Positions 23,796-60,235 of a stretch of DNA of 64,000 nt are shown piece by piece (position 1 is the first letter of the stretch; each line of letters opens with the position of its first letter). Position numbers and translations under genes: made by a program. The notes under the pieces are model-generated. The model had not been told where the DNA came from. It was given only the letters and a program-made list of their open reading frames with translations, and searched no databases. The stretch covers positions 1 through 64,000 of the forward strand of contig JAUYMY010000017.1 in the NCBI GenBank assembly GCA_030699385.1, read 5' to 3'. The stretch is from Methylobacter sp. GTDB taxonomy: Bacteria > Pseudomonadota > Gammaproteobacteria > Methylococcales > Methylomonadaceae.

Positions 23796-23884
23796 GCTTG
23801 GAATAAAGTTTCCTCATTCCTGCTCCATTTCTAAAAAAAAATCACAACACTTGCAATAATTCAGCCACAAAAAAACCGGTATTC

Positions 23885-23928
23885 TTCGTGGTGATAATCT
23901 TTTTACCTGTCATTAACGAGACGTTACA
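23885..23928 (+). repeat. Dispersed repeat, copy A
   Basis: Contains TTCGTGGTGATAATC, then TTTTTACCTGTCATTAACG and AGACGTTAC. Near-identical sequence recurs at 25722-25761 (same strand) and, as reverse complement, at 27695-27726. It lies between attR and the decayed integrase. Confidence 0.75.
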
Positions 23929-25647: not shown

Positions 25648-25667
25648 GGCCGGCGTTATTTCATTCA

Positions 25668-25761
25668 CCACGAAGATCACGAAGTCCACGAAGAATGAAA
25701 CTTCGTGTTCTCCGTGGACTTTGTGGTGATAATCTTTTTACTCGTCATTAATGAGACATTA
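25668..25761. repeat. Dispersed repeat, copy B, with long inverted repeat
   Basis: CACCACGAAGATCACGAAG (from 25668) is matched after a short spacer by an imperfect inverted copy ending ACTTTGTGGTG (25727), forming a long hairpin. It continues into TGATAATCTTTTTAC, then TCGTCATTAATGAGACATTAC (to 25761), shared with copies A and C. The end of the repeat overlaps the first four codons of the ABC permease gene. Confidence 0.8.
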
Positions 25762-26506
25762 CCTTCACCTCAATAAATGCTTACCAACCCTGTCCGCGCT
25801 GGCTTTTTTGGCGCTCTGGCAAGGCTTGGCGGCCTATTTAAACAGCAGCACCTTGCCGATGCCGGAAGTGGTCGCCAAGGTTTTCTGGCAAGCCTGTGTT
25901 TCCGGGCAATTGCCTTATCATTTAGGCGTGACTTTGCTGCGGCTGGTGGTCGGTTTTGCCGTCGCTATGTTGCTCGGTTGCGCCATTGGCATCGTGCTGG
26001 GGCGCAATAAAAAACTCGATGCGTTCTTCGACAACTGGCTGGTGATGTTCTTAAATATCCCGGCGTTGGTCACTATCATCCTGTGCTACGTTTGGTTCGG
26101 CCTGATTGAATCGGCGGCGATACTAGCGGTGGTGGTCAACAAACTGCCCAATGTCATCGTCACCATCCGCGAAGGCACGCGCACACTGGATCAGGACTTG
26201 CTGGAGATGGCGCGCTGTTACCGTTTCGGCAAACGCAAAACCCTGATTCATGTGATTTGGCCGCAATTGCATCCGTTCGTGATGGGCGCGACCCGTTCCG
26301 GTTTGGCCTTAATCTGGAAAATCATCCTTGTGGTCGAGCTGTTGGGGCGCAGTAACGGCATGGGCTATCAGCTGCATTTATTTTTTCAGTTGTTTGATGT
26401 CGCCAGTATTCTGGCTTACACCATCGCCTTTGTTGGCGTCATTCAGCTGATCGAGTTGCTGGTGTTAAAACCGCTGGACAAAAAAGCCCTACGGTGGCGC
26501 CGATGA
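25751..26506 (+). CDS. ABC transporter permease (nitrate/sulfonate/taurine type)
   Basis: A 251-residue inner-membrane protein of the BPD_transp_1 family with about six helices (for example LSALAFLALWQGLAAYL, VGFAVAMLLGCAIGIVLG, NIPALVTIILCYVWFG). The coupling EAA loop is REGTRTLDQDLLEMARCYRFGKRKTLIHVIWPQLHPFVMGATRSGLALIW. The start codon and codons 2-4 (MRHY) are provided by the dispersed repeat, and no obvious ribosome site precedes it. The stop overlaps the ATPase start (ATGA). Confidence 0.85.
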   Translation: MRHYLHLNKCLPTLSALAFLALWQGLAAYLNSSTLPMPEVVAKVFWQACVSGQLPYHLGVTLLRLVVGFAVAMLLGCAIGIVLGRNKKLDAFFDNWLVMFLNIPALVTIILCYVWFGLIESAAILAVVVNKLPNVIVTIREGTRTLDQDLLEMARCYRFGKRKTLIHVIWPQLHPFVMGATRSGLALIWKIILVVELLGRSNGMGYQLHLFFQLFDVASILAYTIAFVGVIQLIELLVLKPLDKKALRWRR

Positions 26507-27684: not shown

Positions 27685-27694
27685 TTTGGTAATT

Positions 27695-27810
27695 TCTCAT
27701 TAATGACAGGTAAAAAGATTATCATCAGAAGACCGCCGAGGTCAAAAGTAGGCGCTTTAGGCGACACGAAGGGTGAAGCTTCTTGATCTCCGTGGTCTTC
27801 GTGGTGAATA
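27695..27810 (-). repeat. Dispersed repeat, copy C (inverted, split)
   Basis: TCATTAATGACAGGTAAAAA followed by GATTATCA (from 27698) is the reverse complement of the core of copies A and B. At about 27786-27810 a second arm, TCTCCGTGGTCTTCGTGGTG, resembles the palindromic arm of copy B. About 60 bases of unrelated sequence lie between the arms. No gene is seen from 27685 to 27920. Confidence 0.7.
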
Positions 27811-27920
27811 AAATATTTTCAATGACCATTCAGTGCTCAATGAATAGTCGATTTATAAGTGGGCGCACAGGAAAACGTTTAAATTACTGGATAGGCATGA
27901 TGCTTAAGGAGAGTTACTGA

Positions 27921-32462: not shown

Positions 32463-35393
32463 ATGGCACTTTCACCCATGGAACAGTTTATCCCCGGCCA
32501 ACGCTGGATCAGTAACACCGAATCAGAGCTCGGTTTAGGCCTTATTCTTGAGGCGGTACACAAGCGCGTCACCGTGCTTTTTTTAGCCTGTGACGAAAAA
32601 CGTATCTACGCACAAGATAACGCACCGTTAACGCGGGTGCGTTTTTCCGCAGGCGATGTGATCGAATCGATTGATGAAGAAAAAGTCACCGTCACCGCTT
32701 TGACCGAACAGGATGGCTTGATCACTTATCTGGGCAAAAACGAGGCGGGTGAGGAAGTCGAACTCGATGAAGTCGAACTAAACCATCATATTCAATTCAA
32801 TAAACCCCAAGACCGGCTGTTTATCGGCCAGGTTGATCCTACCGCCTGGTTTTTGTTGCGTTATGAAACTTGGCTCCGATTGCAGCAACATCAACAATCG
32901 CCGGTTAAAGGCTTATTGGGCGGGCGCGCTTCGCTGATTCCGCATCAGTTGTTTATTGCCCACGAATCGGCTAACCGGTCGGCGCCACGCATTATGCTGG
33001 CGGATGAAGTGGGGCTGGGCAAGACTATTGAAGCCGGGTTGATTTTGCATCATCGGCTGATTAACGGCTTGAGCAAACGGGTGTTGATTATCGTGCCGGA
33101 AACGCTGTTGCATCAATGGCTGGTGGAAATGTTGCGGCGCTTTAATCTGCGTTTTAGTATTTTTGATGAAGCGCGCTGTCTCGACACTTATGCCGAAGAC
33201 GATATGCTCGCCGACGCCGATGAAGTCGATAACACAGGCGATAATCCGTTTTTAACCGAACAATTGATACTGTGCAGCCAAGGCTTTTTTTCCAACTATC
33301 CGCGCCGCCAGCAACAGGCGATAGCCGCCGGTTGGGATATGGTGATTGTCGACGAGGCGCACCATTTGCAATGGAGCGAACAAGCGCCCAGCGCCGATTA
33401 TCTGTTTGTTGAGCAATTGGCGCAAATTTCCCCCAGCCTTATTTTATTGACGGCAACGCCCGAACAATTGGGTAAGGAAAGCCATTTTGCCCGTTTACGT
33501 TTGCTCGATCCCGACCGCTTTTACAGTTTCGCGGCCTTCGTTGAAGAAGAGCGTTTATTTGAGCCGGTGGCCAACGCGGCTAAATTGCTGCTGGCGGAAG
33601 AAGCGCTGGATGAAACGGCGCAGCAACATTTAACCGCGCTGCTTAAAGATGATAATGTCGACGGTTTGCTGAAAAATGTTATCGCCAGGGATGGTGTGTA
33701 TGCCGCAAACCTGCCGGGAGCAGGTGCGGCAAATGATGCTGAAAAATCGGCGGCAGCGCGTGATGCGTTGGTGAATGTGCTGCTCGACCATCACGGCACC
33801 GGGCGGATTTTGTTCCGTAATTCGCGGCAAACCGTGCAGGGTTTTCCTGAGCGGGAGCGTTACGGCTATGCCTTAAGCGGATCAGCGAACAGCGATGATT
33901 TGCAACAAGACCCGCGTTATTTGTGGTTGGTGGACAAAGTTAAGCAATTGGCCGGTCAAAAAGCCTTGGTGATTTGCAAACAGGCGCAGACCGCGATTGA
34001 TTTCGAACAAACGTTGAAGAACCGCGCCGGCATTGCTTCGGCGGTATTCCATGAAGGCATGAGCATTATCGAACGCGATAGGGCGGCGGCGTATTTTGCC
34101 GATCCTGACAGCTCGGCACGCTTGTTGATTTGCTCTGAAATCGGCAGTGAAGGCCGCAATTTCCAGTTTGTGCATCATTTGATCTTGATGGATTTGCCGA
34201 CTAATCCCGATCTGTTGCAGCAACGTATCGGCCGTCTTGACCGTATAGGGCAAAAACATATTATTCAGATTCATGTGCCCTATCTGGAGCAGACCGATAA
34301 CGCGGTGCTGTACCGCTGGTATGATGAAGGCCTCAATGCCTTTGCCTGTAACAGTTCATCGGCGCAGCGGGTTGCGGATATTTTGCATGATGAGTTGGCG
34401 GCGGTTTTAGCGAGTAATATCGCCAGGGATGGTGTGTATGCCGCAAACCTGCCGGGAGCAGGTGCGGCGCAGGCCGATATTGACGCACTTATCGCAAAAA
34501 CCCGGTCACTCAGCACTGAGCTGGAAACTCAAATGCATAATGGCCGCGACCAATTGCTGGAGTTAAATTCCTGCCGCAAGGAATTGGCTAGCGAACTGAT
34601 TGCACAGCTGAATGCGTATGAAAAGGAAGGCGTGTTGTGGCCGTATATGGAAGATGTGTTTGAATGCTACGGCGTCGATACCGAGTTTCATTCGCCCAAT
34701 TGTTTTATAGTGCGTCCTAGCGATCATTTGCGCGTGTCGCATTTTCCCGGTTTAACCGAAGACGGCATGACCCTCACCGTCGACCGGCAGATTGCGCTGG
34801 CGCGTGAAGACATGCAGTTTATGACCTGGGAGCATCCATTGGTGACTGCGTCGATGGATATGGTGCTGTCTTCCGAAACCGGCAATGCCGCAATCAGCGT
34901 GATTAAACACAATGATCTTAAAGGCGGTCAGTTCTTGTTGGAGTGTTTGTTTATTGTCGAATGCAGCGCGCCTGCCGAACTGCAAATCGGCCGGTTCCTG
35001 CCGCACACGCCGATTCGGGTGTTGATAGATCAAAACCGAAAAGATTTAACGGCGGAAATAGAGCATCGCGATTTGCTTGAAGCCGGTATCAAGTTTGATA
35101 AACATAAGATTATCGCCTTTTTGAGCAGCCAACGGCCTTATCTGATTAATATTCTGGGCGTAGCCGAACAAACCGCTAAAGCTGAAATGCAGCAGTTGGT
35201 TGAACAGGCCACCCAGGCTATGCTGGAATCGCTTGGCAATGAGATCAAGCGCTTGGTCAGGCTGAAAAAAGTTAATCCGACCATCAGGACTGAAGAAATC
35301 GAGCTGTTAAAGGACATGACCCTGTTGGCGCATGAAAACATCCAGGCCGCGCAGTTAAGGCTGGATGCGGTCAGATTTGTGATTACCAGTTGA
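32463..35393 (+). CDS. rapA: RNA polymerase-associated ATPase RapA (HepA)
   Basis: A 976-residue SWI/SNF-type ATPase that recycles RNA polymerase. It has N-terminal Tudor-like domains, Walker A DEVGLGKTIEAGL (near residue 180), the DEAH box VDEAHHL, the helicase motif V/VI region EIGSEGRNFQFVHHLI and QQRIGRLDRIGQ, and C-terminal RapA-specific domains. Two identical 17-residue insertions (IARDGVYAANLPGAGAA) at residues 407-423 and 653-669 have no counterpart in E. coli RapA as I recall its sequence. Each lies in a presumably exposed linker and preserves the frame. Confidence 0.95.
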   Translation: MALSPMEQFIPGQRWISNTESELGLGLILEAVHKRVTVLFLACDEKRIYAQDNAPLTRVRFSAGDVIESIDEEKVTVTALTEQDGLITYLGKNEAGEEVELDEVELNHHIQFNKPQDRLFIGQVDPTAWFLLRYETWLRLQQHQQSPVKGLLGGRASLIPHQLFIAHESANRSAPRIMLADEVGLGKTIEAGLILHHRLINGLSKRVLIIVPETLLHQWLVEMLRRFNLRFSIFDEARCLDTYAEDDMLADADEVDNTGDNPFLTEQLILCSQGFFSNYPRRQQQAIAAGWDMVIVDEAHHLQWSEQAPSADYLFVEQLAQISPSLILLTATPEQLGKESHFARLRLLDPDRFYSFAAFVEEERLFEPVANAAKLLLAEEALDETAQQHLTALLKDDNVDGLLKNVIARDGVYAANLPGAGAANDAEKSAAARDALVNVLLDHHGTGRILFRNSRQTVQGFPERERYGYALSGSANSDDLQQDPRYLWLVDKVKQLAGQKALVICKQAQTAIDFEQTLKNRAGIASAVFHEGMSIIERDRAAAYFADPDSSARLLICSEIGSEGRNFQFVHHLILMDLPTNPDLLQQRIGRLDRIGQKHIIQIHVPYLEQTDNAVLYRWYDEGLNAFACNSSSAQRVADILHDELAAVLASNIARDGVYAANLPGAGAAQADIDALIAKTRSLSTELETQMHNGRDQLLELNSCRKELASELIAQLNAYEKEGVLWPYMEDVFECYGVDTEFHSPNCFIVRPSDHLRVSHFPGLTEDGMTLTVDRQIALAREDMQFMTWEHPLVTASMDMVLSSETGNAAISVIKHNDLKGGQFLLECLFIVECSAPAELQIGRFLPHTPIRVLIDQNRKDLTAEIEHRDLLEAGIKFDKHKIIAFLSSQRPYLINILGVAEQTAKAEMQQLVEQATQAMLESLGNEIKRLVRLKKVNPTIRTEEIELLKDMTLLAHENIQAAQLRLDAVRFVITS
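33680..33730 (+). repeat. In-frame palindromic repeat in rapA, copy 1
   Basis: A 51-base segment identical to 34418-34468. Its 3' half folds as GCCGC/GCGGC and CCTGC/GCAGG around a CGGGA loop, with two unpaired A. It encodes residues 407-423. Its length is a multiple of three and it carries no stop in this frame. Confidence 0.9.
34418..34468 (+). repeat. In-frame palindromic repeat in rapA, copy 2
   Basis: Identical base for base to 33680-33730, in the same orientation and reading frame, encoding residues 653-669. The flanks of the two copies share nothing beyond these 51 bases, which points to insertion of a mobile unit rather than domain duplication. Confidence 0.9.
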
Positions 35394-58601: not shown

Positions 58602-59021
58602 ATGAATAAAATACGTGTATTGATTATCGATGACTCATTGTTAATCAGAAAGGTTTTGACGGAAATTTTAAACTCGTCTCCTGATATTGAGGTGGTTGGT
58701 ACTGCAGAAGATCCTCTTATTGCCAGAGAAATGATAAAGGAATTAAATCCGGATGTATTAACCTTGGATATTGAAATGCCGCGTATGGATGGAATTACTT
58801 TTTTACGTAACTTGATGCGTTTAAGGCCTATGCCTGTTGTGATGATTTCTGTATTGACAGAGAGTAATGCTGAGGTGACTTTAACGGCTCTGGAATTAGG
58901 TGCGGTAGATTTTATCGCTAAACCGGTAGTTGATGTGGAGAATACATTGAATGATTATGCCGAGGATATTATCGCCAAAGTCAAGGTAGCCTCTCAGGCT
59001 AATATTAGAAGGCTGACATAA
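58602..59021 (+). CDS. Receiver-only CheB paralogue
   Basis: A 139-residue protein matching the receiver domain and linker start of CheB ([25 protein letters not shown]; phospho-acceptor in [22 protein letters not shown]). It is highly similar to the first ~137 residues of the full CheB that follows 89 bases later. The methylesterase domain is missing; the frame ends with [11 protein letters not shown] at the domain boundary. It is probably the product of a tandem duplication followed by truncation and may act as a phosphate sink or competitor. Confidence 0.88.
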
Positions 59022-59110: not shown

Positions 59111-60235
59111 ATGGGTAAGATACGCGTATTAGTTATTGATGATTCGGCATTAATCAGAAAAATACTGACCGAGGTTTTAAGTTCGTCGCCGGAGATTGAG
59201 GTTATTGGTGCAGCTGCCGATCCTCTTATTGCCCGGGAGATGATAAAGCAATTAAATCCGGACGTATTAACGCTGGATATTGAAATGCCGCACATGGACG
59301 GTATTACTTTCTTAAGTAACTTGATGCGCTTAAGACCGACTCCAGTTGTGATGATTTCAACACTGACTGAGCACGGTGCCGAGGCCACTTTGAATGCGCT
59401 GGCGCTAGGCGCGGTTGATTTTATTGCCAAACCTAGAGTTGATGTTGTTAATACGCTGAATGAATATGCCGAGGAAATTATTTCCAAAGTTATTGGTGCG
59501 GCGCAGGCTAAAGTCGGCAATGTTTATAACAGGGCAGTCAAGCCGCCTAAAAGTCCTGTTGCCGCAACGGTTGCTGAGGTGTCAGAAAAGCATTCAGTCG
59601 ATGTGATTCTAAAAGCCGCTCCGGTAAAAACTCATATTAGCCCGACCAATAAGATTATTGCTTTAGGTGCGTCAACGGGAGGCACTGAAGCCATTAAAGC
59701 TGTGGTTAAAGGTTTTCCGGCCGATACGCCGCCTATTTTAATTACCCAGCATTTACCCGCCGCTTTTAGTGAATCCTTTGTTCGTCATATTGATCTTGCC
59801 ACGGCAATGTCGGCTTGTATTCCAAAAGATGGTCAACTGATTGAGCCGGGTAATATTTATCTTTCACCGGGCGATAAGCACATGCTGGTGGTCAGGGAGG
59901 GCGGTAAATATATGATTCAATTGAATGACGGCTTGCCGGTTAACCGCCACAAACCTGCTGTTGATGTGCTGTTTCGTTCAGTGTCGCAATGCGCCGGTGC
60001 GAATGCTATTGCGGTGTTATTAACCGGCATGGGCGCGGACGGGGCAATGGGTATGAAAGAAATGCATGATGCCGGTGCTAAAACCGTGATTCAGGATGAG
60101 CAATCTAGTGTAGTTTGGGGGATGCCGGGGGCTGCATTTAAGTTGGGCTGTGCGGACTATGTGGTGTCGTTAGAGGAAGTCGCGAATAAAGTTTTAAGTT
60201 TGGTCAAGCCGGGTGGTGCTGGCAAGGGTAACTAA
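59111..60235 (+). CDS. cheB: Chemotaxis methylesterase/glutaminase CheB
   Basis: A 374-residue CheB: a receiver domain with D10, D11 and phospho-acceptor D56 ([13 protein letters not shown]), a ~45-residue linker, and a methylesterase domain with Ser in GASTGGTEAI, His in TQHLPAAFSESFVRHID and Asp in LTGMGADGAMGM. It demethylates and deamidates receptors when phosphorylated by CheA. TGGAG precedes the start. A hairpin (60242-60272) follows the stop. Confidence 0.97.
   Translation: MGKIRVLVIDDSALIRKILTEVLSSSPEIEVIGAAADPLIAREMIKQLNPDVLTLDIEMPHMDGITFLSNLMRLRPTPVVMISTLTEHGAEATLNALALGAVDFIAKPRVDVVNTLNEYAEEIISKVIGAAQAKVGNVYNRAVKPPKSPVAATVAEVSEKHSVDVILKAAPVKTHISPTNKIIALGASTGGTEAIKAVVKGFPADTPPILITQHLPAAFSESFVRHIDLATAMSACIPKDGQLIEPGNIYLSPGDKHMLVVREGGKYMIQLNDGLPVNRHKPAVDVLFRSVSQCAGANAIAVLLTGMGADGAMGMKEMHDAGAKTVIQDEQSSVVWGMPGAAFKLGCADYVVSLEEVANKVLSLVKPGGAGKGN

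Follow-up and report, generated by a model that had tools for sequence, protein, structure and literature searches.

A 51-bp palindromic repeat within protein genes of Methylobacter and its relatives: a probable mobile element tolerated in coding sequence

We describe here a palindromic repeat of 51 bp, termed F1, two identical copies of which lie in frame in the rapA gene within a stretch of 64,000 nucleotides from Methylobacter sp. (assembly GCA_030699385.1, contig JAUYMY010000017.1, positions 1 to 64,000; hereafter the window). A preliminary description of this DNA had proposed, from the rapA pair, a mobile palindromic unit that tolerates insertion into coding sequence. Our analysis bears this out and shows that the extent of the phenomenon had been underestimated, since there are in fact three related families (F1, F2 and F3), tandem arrays and a genus-wide spread. 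What we observe is a repeat family with precise insertion, a target motif, a characteristic use of reading frames, covarying stems and exact arrays. Because copies occur in unrelated genes, empty sites are exact, the target motif is independent of frame and the stems covary, F1 is very probably a non-autonomous mobile element that is tolerated in coding sequence.

The carrier gene, rapA (32463..35393, forward strand), encodes an RNA polymerase-associated helicase of 976 aa. Its open reading frame (ORF) scores 1202 bits against the RapA equivalog NF003426, and its identity is also supported by the Pfam domains RapA_C and Tudor_RapA and by RapA in the PDB. The two inserts, 33680..33730 (copy 1) and 34418..34468 (copy 2) in the boundaries first given to them, are identical over 51 nt, share strand (forward) and frame, and are 738 nt apart. 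Each encodes IARDGVYAANLPGAGAA; sequence and ORF thus confirm that the same 17 residues are encoded twice. Copy 1, which spans positions 1-51 of the F1 covariance model at 82.5 bits, is further delimited by orthologue alignment, and copy 2 is recognized from its sequence and by the same model. Folding confirms the hairpin already noted in the 3′ half, which in both copies pairs as GCCGC-AA-ACCTGC/GCAGGT-GCGGC, and the 5′ half adds a second small hairpin. In copy 1 the small hairpin (CGCCA GGGA TGGTG) occupies 33683..33696, and the large one, with 11 pairs, the loop CGGGA and compensatory changes among copies, occupies 33702..33730; the counterparts in copy 2 are at 34421..34434 and 34440..34468, all on the forward strand and all resting on folding together with pair analysis. 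The covariance model (E ≤ 0.001) finds no further F1 copy in the window, and the Rfam 15 covariance models match nothing in 33600-34550 up to E = 1.

Both inserts had been taken to be insertions relative to E. coli RapA, and the alignment indeed shows no E. coli counterpart to either. Across 29 aligned RapA orthologue loci, our own included and one shorter ORF excluded, site 1 is occupied in five (our own L149, L150, L153, L173 and L174) and empty in 24, the difference being a clean 51-bp step. A sixth genome, Ca. M. oryzae LH-02apr19 (L111), carries two units at this site. Site 2 is occupied only in our own locus and in L150, whose RapA is 98% identical to our own, and the insert is absent from the other 27 aligned orthologues. 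A third insertion site, in the opposite orientation, is found in L079 and L111.

F1 is abundant well beyond rapA. A BLAST search of the genome to which the window belongs (3.57 Mb, 87.8% complete), a check proposed together with the orthologue alignment, gives 25 places at E ≤ 1e-6, both RapA copies included; there are thus 23 further places, and the RapA pair is not a chance occurrence. At its start, leuS carries a copy with exactly the sequence of the RapA 51-mers. The covariance model for F1 (R1), built from 21 copies, finds 29 copies in this genome at 46 bits or more (27 beyond RapA) and 42 matches at E ≤ 0.01. All 23 genus genomes are matched at E ≤ 0.01, with at least 3 to at least 108 matches per genome, these counts being lower bounds with at most 150 candidates scored (at most 39 in the order-wide set); in the poorest genome (G017) the best E-value is 1.8e-7. 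G001, G010 and G020 are rich in the element, and G016 to G019 are poor in it. Order-wide, 32 of 151 genomes have an R1 match at E ≤ 1e-6: all 10 of the genus members listed, 19 members of the same family and three from other families. A core-pattern scan with one genome per species yields at least 114 stretches; each of those listed bears the title Methylobacter, Methylovulum, Methylococcaceae or Methylococcales, and they include the M. tundripaludum strains SV96 and OWC-G53F as well as Ca. M. oryzae KRF1. The 51-mer is unmatched in phage and plasmid records at E ≤ 0.01, and Rfam at gathering thresholds finds nothing in eight loci, non-coding arrays among them. A local cluster, with five F1 arrays in a single 8-kb stretch, is seen in Ca. 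M. oryzae LH-02apr19 (L097).

For the analysis of insertion sites, the matches from our own genome and from the 114 stretches listed were pooled (247 in all), and 14 divergent ones (F2, F3, remnants and one doubtful case) were dropped; the remaining 233 F1 units form 166 arrays. Thirteen arrays whose end units were incomplete or whose flanks were short were excluded, and site clustering gave 77 distinct sites. Among the loci analysed, apparently unoccupied homologues are available for 33 distinct sites, and 27 of these are gap-free across ±20 nt. The raw count was 29 of 35, from which row #53 (the filled site itself) and row #75 (a tandem neighbour) were removed by eye; two doubtful-looking rows, #62 and #72, align without gaps over 201 and 177 nt. 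None of the 27 gap-free empty sites shows a target duplication. Of these 27 empty homologues, 22 have a T at the left edge and 22 a G at the fourth base to the right (r4), and both bases therefore belong to the target. The repeated unit stands as first described, but its exact ends do not. Judged from the empty sites, the inserted unit is most likely shifted rightwards by one base and runs T|ATCGCC...GCGGC with one further base, which is usually G. For copy 1 this would place it at 33681-33731 and, by analogy, for copy 2 at 34419-34469 (both forward strand).

Across the 77 distinct sites the target reads WT|nnnG, with T at the left edge in 74, A or T (W) before it in 91% and G at r4 in 86%. 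The rapA sites conform: the left-hand dinucleotide is TT (33679..33680) at copy 1, with the matching G at 33735, and AT (34417..34418) at copy 2, with the matching G at 34473, all on the forward strand. The G at r4 is not a codon effect, because it holds in each of the three main reading classes (31/34 in same-2, 15/19 in anti-0 and 11/13 in anti-1); right-flank positions of equal codon phase elsewhere are G in 16-47%. Terminal inverted repeats are absent, the F1 ends ATCGCC and GCGGCG not being inverted repeats of each other. The fold, on the other hand, is well maintained. Standard pairs make up 97.2% of the pair cells in 20 distinct F1 copies, seven pairs are altered on both sides, and there are 29 two-sided cells against 7.1 in shuffles; the inner stem alone occurs as ACCTGC/GCAGGT, GCCTGT/ACAGGC, GCCAGT/ACTGGC and GTCCGC/GCGGAC. 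Where units stand in tandem, no extra base is present at 66 of 67 junctions. The element's own left boundary, T|ATCG, conforms to the target rule as well, which would account for the arrays.

We next turn to the relation of F1 to genes. Ten arrays near locus ends were excluded from the location test; the other 156 stand 200 bp or more from such an end. Of these 156, 149 lie within ORFs of at least 150 aa, compared with 3376 of 4000 random 51-nt stretches (84.4%; binomial p = 2e-5); by distinct sites the figure is 73 of 77 (p = 0.007). The element is read in all six ways: the 149 arrays divide into 75 same-2, 37 anti-0, 22 anti-1, 7 same-1, 5 anti-2 and 3 same-0, or 85 in the orientation of the gene and 64 against it. 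At the 77 distinct sites the same classes number 34, 19, 13, 3, 3 and 1, with four sites outside ORFs, whereas the positions of WT|nnnG in 603 ORFs predict 19.1, 7.1, 15.9, 13.5, 12.3 and 5.1 for 73 sites (chi-squared 50, p = 1e-9). We infer from this that insertion depends little on frame and that survival depends on the encoded peptide. F1 is also unusually free of stop codons, 135 of 191 distinct units being open in all six frames, against 1.4% of random 51-mers from the window, 5.3% of base shuffles, 6.2% of structure-preserving shuffles and 8.8% of GC-matched 51-mers from the window; the tandem dimer is open in six frames as well.

The host proteins are of many kinds. Twenty ORFs of our own genome were tested against NCBIfam, two of which have no family at 1e-10. 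F1 hosts above the family cut-off are LeuS, ribonuclease R, AroA, an NtrCD-type ABC protein, SufD, NadD, ComEC, DapC, oligopeptidase A, a GspE/PilB ATPase, YhdP and FolP; RsmJ and CopD, the latter also with F2, fall below it. Among ORFs bearing F2 or F3, FlhF and CobQ are above the cut-off and CobD and RimI below. Several of these genes are essential in model bacteria, and the enlarged proteins therefore presumably work. In LeuS (our own, L015) and in a protein of L042, L047, L057, L085, L089 and L104, whose QRWYQTWEE-like N-terminus looks like that of ValS, the inserts stand at comparable positions close to the N-terminus, which may mark a hotspot.

F1 has relatives. Weak R1 matches exposed F2 (GACCGCCAGGGATGGTGGAAGTGTCGC...), likewise of 51 nt and with a similar two-hairpin plan. 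A covariance model (R2) built from six F2 copies finds the family in 22 of the 23 genus genomes at E ≤ 1e-6. Of the 31 F2 arrays looked at, 29 lie within ORFs, and the base to the left is C in 27 of 27 arrays of full-length units. When R2 was run on 100 of the 114 F1 pattern loci listed it found no F2, fewer than the few copies to be expected from the genome density of F2. F3 is nested inside F2 copies, within ORFs, in our own genome at L031 (and at L183, judged by its flanks) and in L250. At L031 (C74:4000-12200) F3 units lie within F2 units in cobQ-like and cobD-like genes, and the ORFs remain open.

These observations can be assembled into a model. One strand of the 51-bp unit would fold into two hairpins and be inserted precisely after the T of W-T|n-n-n-G, in either orientation, leaving neither target duplication nor deletion. 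As 51 bp correspond to 17 codons, in most copies without a stop in any of the six frames, insertion would generally add 17 residues rather than break the gene, and selection would then retain those copies whose frame yields a harmless peptide. A new copy could enter at the border of an existing copy, where T|ATCG fits the rule, giving rise to exact 51-bp tandem arrays. It is quite possible, in our estimate, that a trans-acting enzyme moves the unit by working on folded and probably single-stranded DNA. A broader and somewhat more tentative proposal is that F1, F2 and F3 stand apart as a class of mobile DNA of their own, suited to intragenic life, with 17-codon length, a near lack of stops in every frame and ends that recreate their own target having been selected, and that this class is moved by a so far undescribed, target-specific enzyme that makes no duplication and is neither a REP-associated tyrosine transposase (RAYT) nor a DDE transposase.

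A number of points weigh against the interpretation of F1 as a mobile element tolerated in coding sequence. First of all, six of the 33 sites with empty homologues are not gap-free, and some of those homologues are doubtful. Second, the orthologue alignment gives a clean picture only for site 1 of rapA; the loop at site 2 varies in length and homologues differ by 3 nt, so that its boundaries are not clean. The presence of site 1 in six genomes could itself reflect inheritance with loss, repeated insertion or recombination. Third, six-frame openness is not universal, because F2 carries a stop in one frame, with 5 of 31 units open in all six, and the openness of F1 may partly be luck (about 6% per random unit). 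Fourth, the enrichment in coding sequence, though real, is modest, and picking the named loci by an exact core pattern biases them to well-kept copies. Furthermore, no moving enzyme was found and no transposition event was observed. Finally, the arrays of SV96 comprise 9 on the leading strand, 9 on the lagging strand and 3 ambiguous, in a test of low power with replication direction taken from coarse GC skew; the lack of bias lends no support to replication-coupled single-strand insertion, either in our model or in the first alternative below.

This alternative, which we consider unlikely, makes F1 an intragenic member of the repetitive extragenic palindromic (REP)/RAYT systems, in which a Y1 (HUH) tyrosine transposase, either a RAYT or an enzyme of IS200/IS605 type, would move it as single-stranded DNA. 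The hairpins, the lack of target duplication and the T-rich left flank agree with Y1 chemistry, and Y1_Tnp is matched in all 23 genus genomes (141 matches). The number of F1 copies, however, does not clearly follow that of Y1 matches (Spearman 0.30, p = 0.17, 23 genomes): G001 combines at least 108 F1 matches with one Y1 match and G019 at least three with six. The flanks, up to about 1.5 kb, of 32 Y1 loci, not all of them proven RAYTs as opposed to IS200/IS605, contain a single weak F1 or F2 match, and no F1 or F2 copy adjoins the one Y1 gene of our own genome. Target specificity also reaches to the right of the insertion point, to the G at r4, which to our knowledge has no parallel among Y1 elements. 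The Y1 gene of our own genome, its only Y1 match, is a tnpA of the IS200/IS605 type (L179, C71:157898-161263), next to which is a gene that reads by eye like tnpB.

Spread through RNA, with transcripts containing the structured unit being reverse-transcribed or joined into DNA, would suit the conserved, RNA-like fold with its covariation and the location of most copies in genes, but copies running with the gene (85) and against it (64) are both common, and we regard this route as improbable. More improbable still is an origin of the copies in ordinary recombination, or in slippage of the template, at short homologies and with no transposition enzyme. Some targets, such as those of L040 and L142, do resemble the left end of the element, and the alternating ABAB units of L057, a unit duplication within an array, look slippage-like; slippage, however, accounts for array growth and not for first insertions, and a 51-bp step with fixed ends and a short target common to unrelated genes is not expected from it. 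That selection for the 17-residue peptide, as a functional module, has spread the element is scarcely credible and was rejected because several frames are in use: although the IARDGVYAANLPGAGAA frame is the commonest class (34 of 73 distinct coding sites), the other 39 sites are read in five other frame and orientation classes that give unrelated peptides, base changes preserve stem pairing, and the identified host proteins are of unrelated kinds.

How, then, does a mobile F1 compare with known systems? The preliminary description likened it to the palindromic elements of Rickettsia, and this holds for behaviour. In PMC10969869, PMC3767692 and PMC2229807, the Rickettsia and Wolbachia elements are palindromic, present in many copies, placed in frame in conserved protein genes and represented by several families per genome; the Rickettsia palindromic elements (RPEs) are about 105-150 bp long with in-frame insertion, and PMC2229807 gives 105-146 bp and marks target duplication with '?'. 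F1 is similarly a many-copy palindromic repeat that lies in frame in protein genes without breaking them (149 of 156 arrays). Compared with RPEs as so described, it differs in its 51-bp size, its hosts (gammaproteobacterial methanotrophs among the matches listed), its defined target and its exact tandem arrays, and the mostly intragenic location of our sample is a further difference; F1 thus fits RPEs in behaviour, by analogy, and not in membership. We know of no established mover or target for the RPEs or the Wolbachia elements.

REPs, on the other hand, seldom overlap coding regions according to PMC12306157, whereas some lie in genes and a GTAG or CGTC tag marks one end according to PMC3733652. 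F1 shares with REPs and REPINs that it is a short, non-autonomous hairpin repeat. It is unlike them in having 149 of 156 arrays within ORFs instead of being mostly extragenic, in running ATCG...GGCG without that tag and in showing no RAYT linkage (a single weak match across the 32 loci covered, out of 141 Y1 matches). ERIC/RU-1 and the 107-bp form of Correia are small non-autonomous repeats able to fuse in frame according to PMC2759123, on enterobacterial repeats, and PMC2229807, and in the latter they are miniature inverted-repeat transposable elements with terminal inverted repeats and target duplications; F1, unlike such elements of DDE transposons, shows neither terminal inverted repeats nor target site duplication. 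PATEs, named in PMC4853749, are in turn palindromic elements derived from IS200/IS605; F1 differs from them in having no linkage to Y1 genes and a target requirement on both sides. There is nonetheless a resemblance to the parent group at the level of chemistry and structure. Elements of the IS200/IS605 type have hairpins near their ends, make no target duplication and possess a fixed left flank, and F1 resembles them in these respects. They also show a replication strand bias, on which the few arrays of SV96 (9 leading, 9 lagging, 3 ambiguous) give a comparison of low power.

The behaviour of F1 is hence known in kind, and this family, its size, its host group, its target rule and its exact tandem growth appear new. 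That the element had not been described for this group agrees with the open-licence literature, which has nothing on it among the matches listed, although this is weak evidence of absence. Frequent in-frame invasion of genes by repeats is known mainly from Rickettsia and Wolbachia. The Methylobacter case offers free-living hosts, of which M. tundripaludum SV96 is in culture; copies number in the tens, sister species preserve exact empty sites, and the target motif can be read. Two questions thereby become accessible to experiment, the way in which such elements move and the way in which leucyl-tRNA synthetase and other proteins cope with 17 extra residues, and the F1 sites constitute a natural data set on the insertion places and peptides that proteins accept.

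The window contains other repeats as well. Direct and inverted repeats of 42-52 nt that are 79-89% alike, partly of the CACGAAGATCACGAAG type, lie at 23884-23927, 25657-25763 and 27686-27815, and a direct repeat of 300 nt with 76% identity and a spacing of 509 nt links 58602-58901 with 59111-59410.

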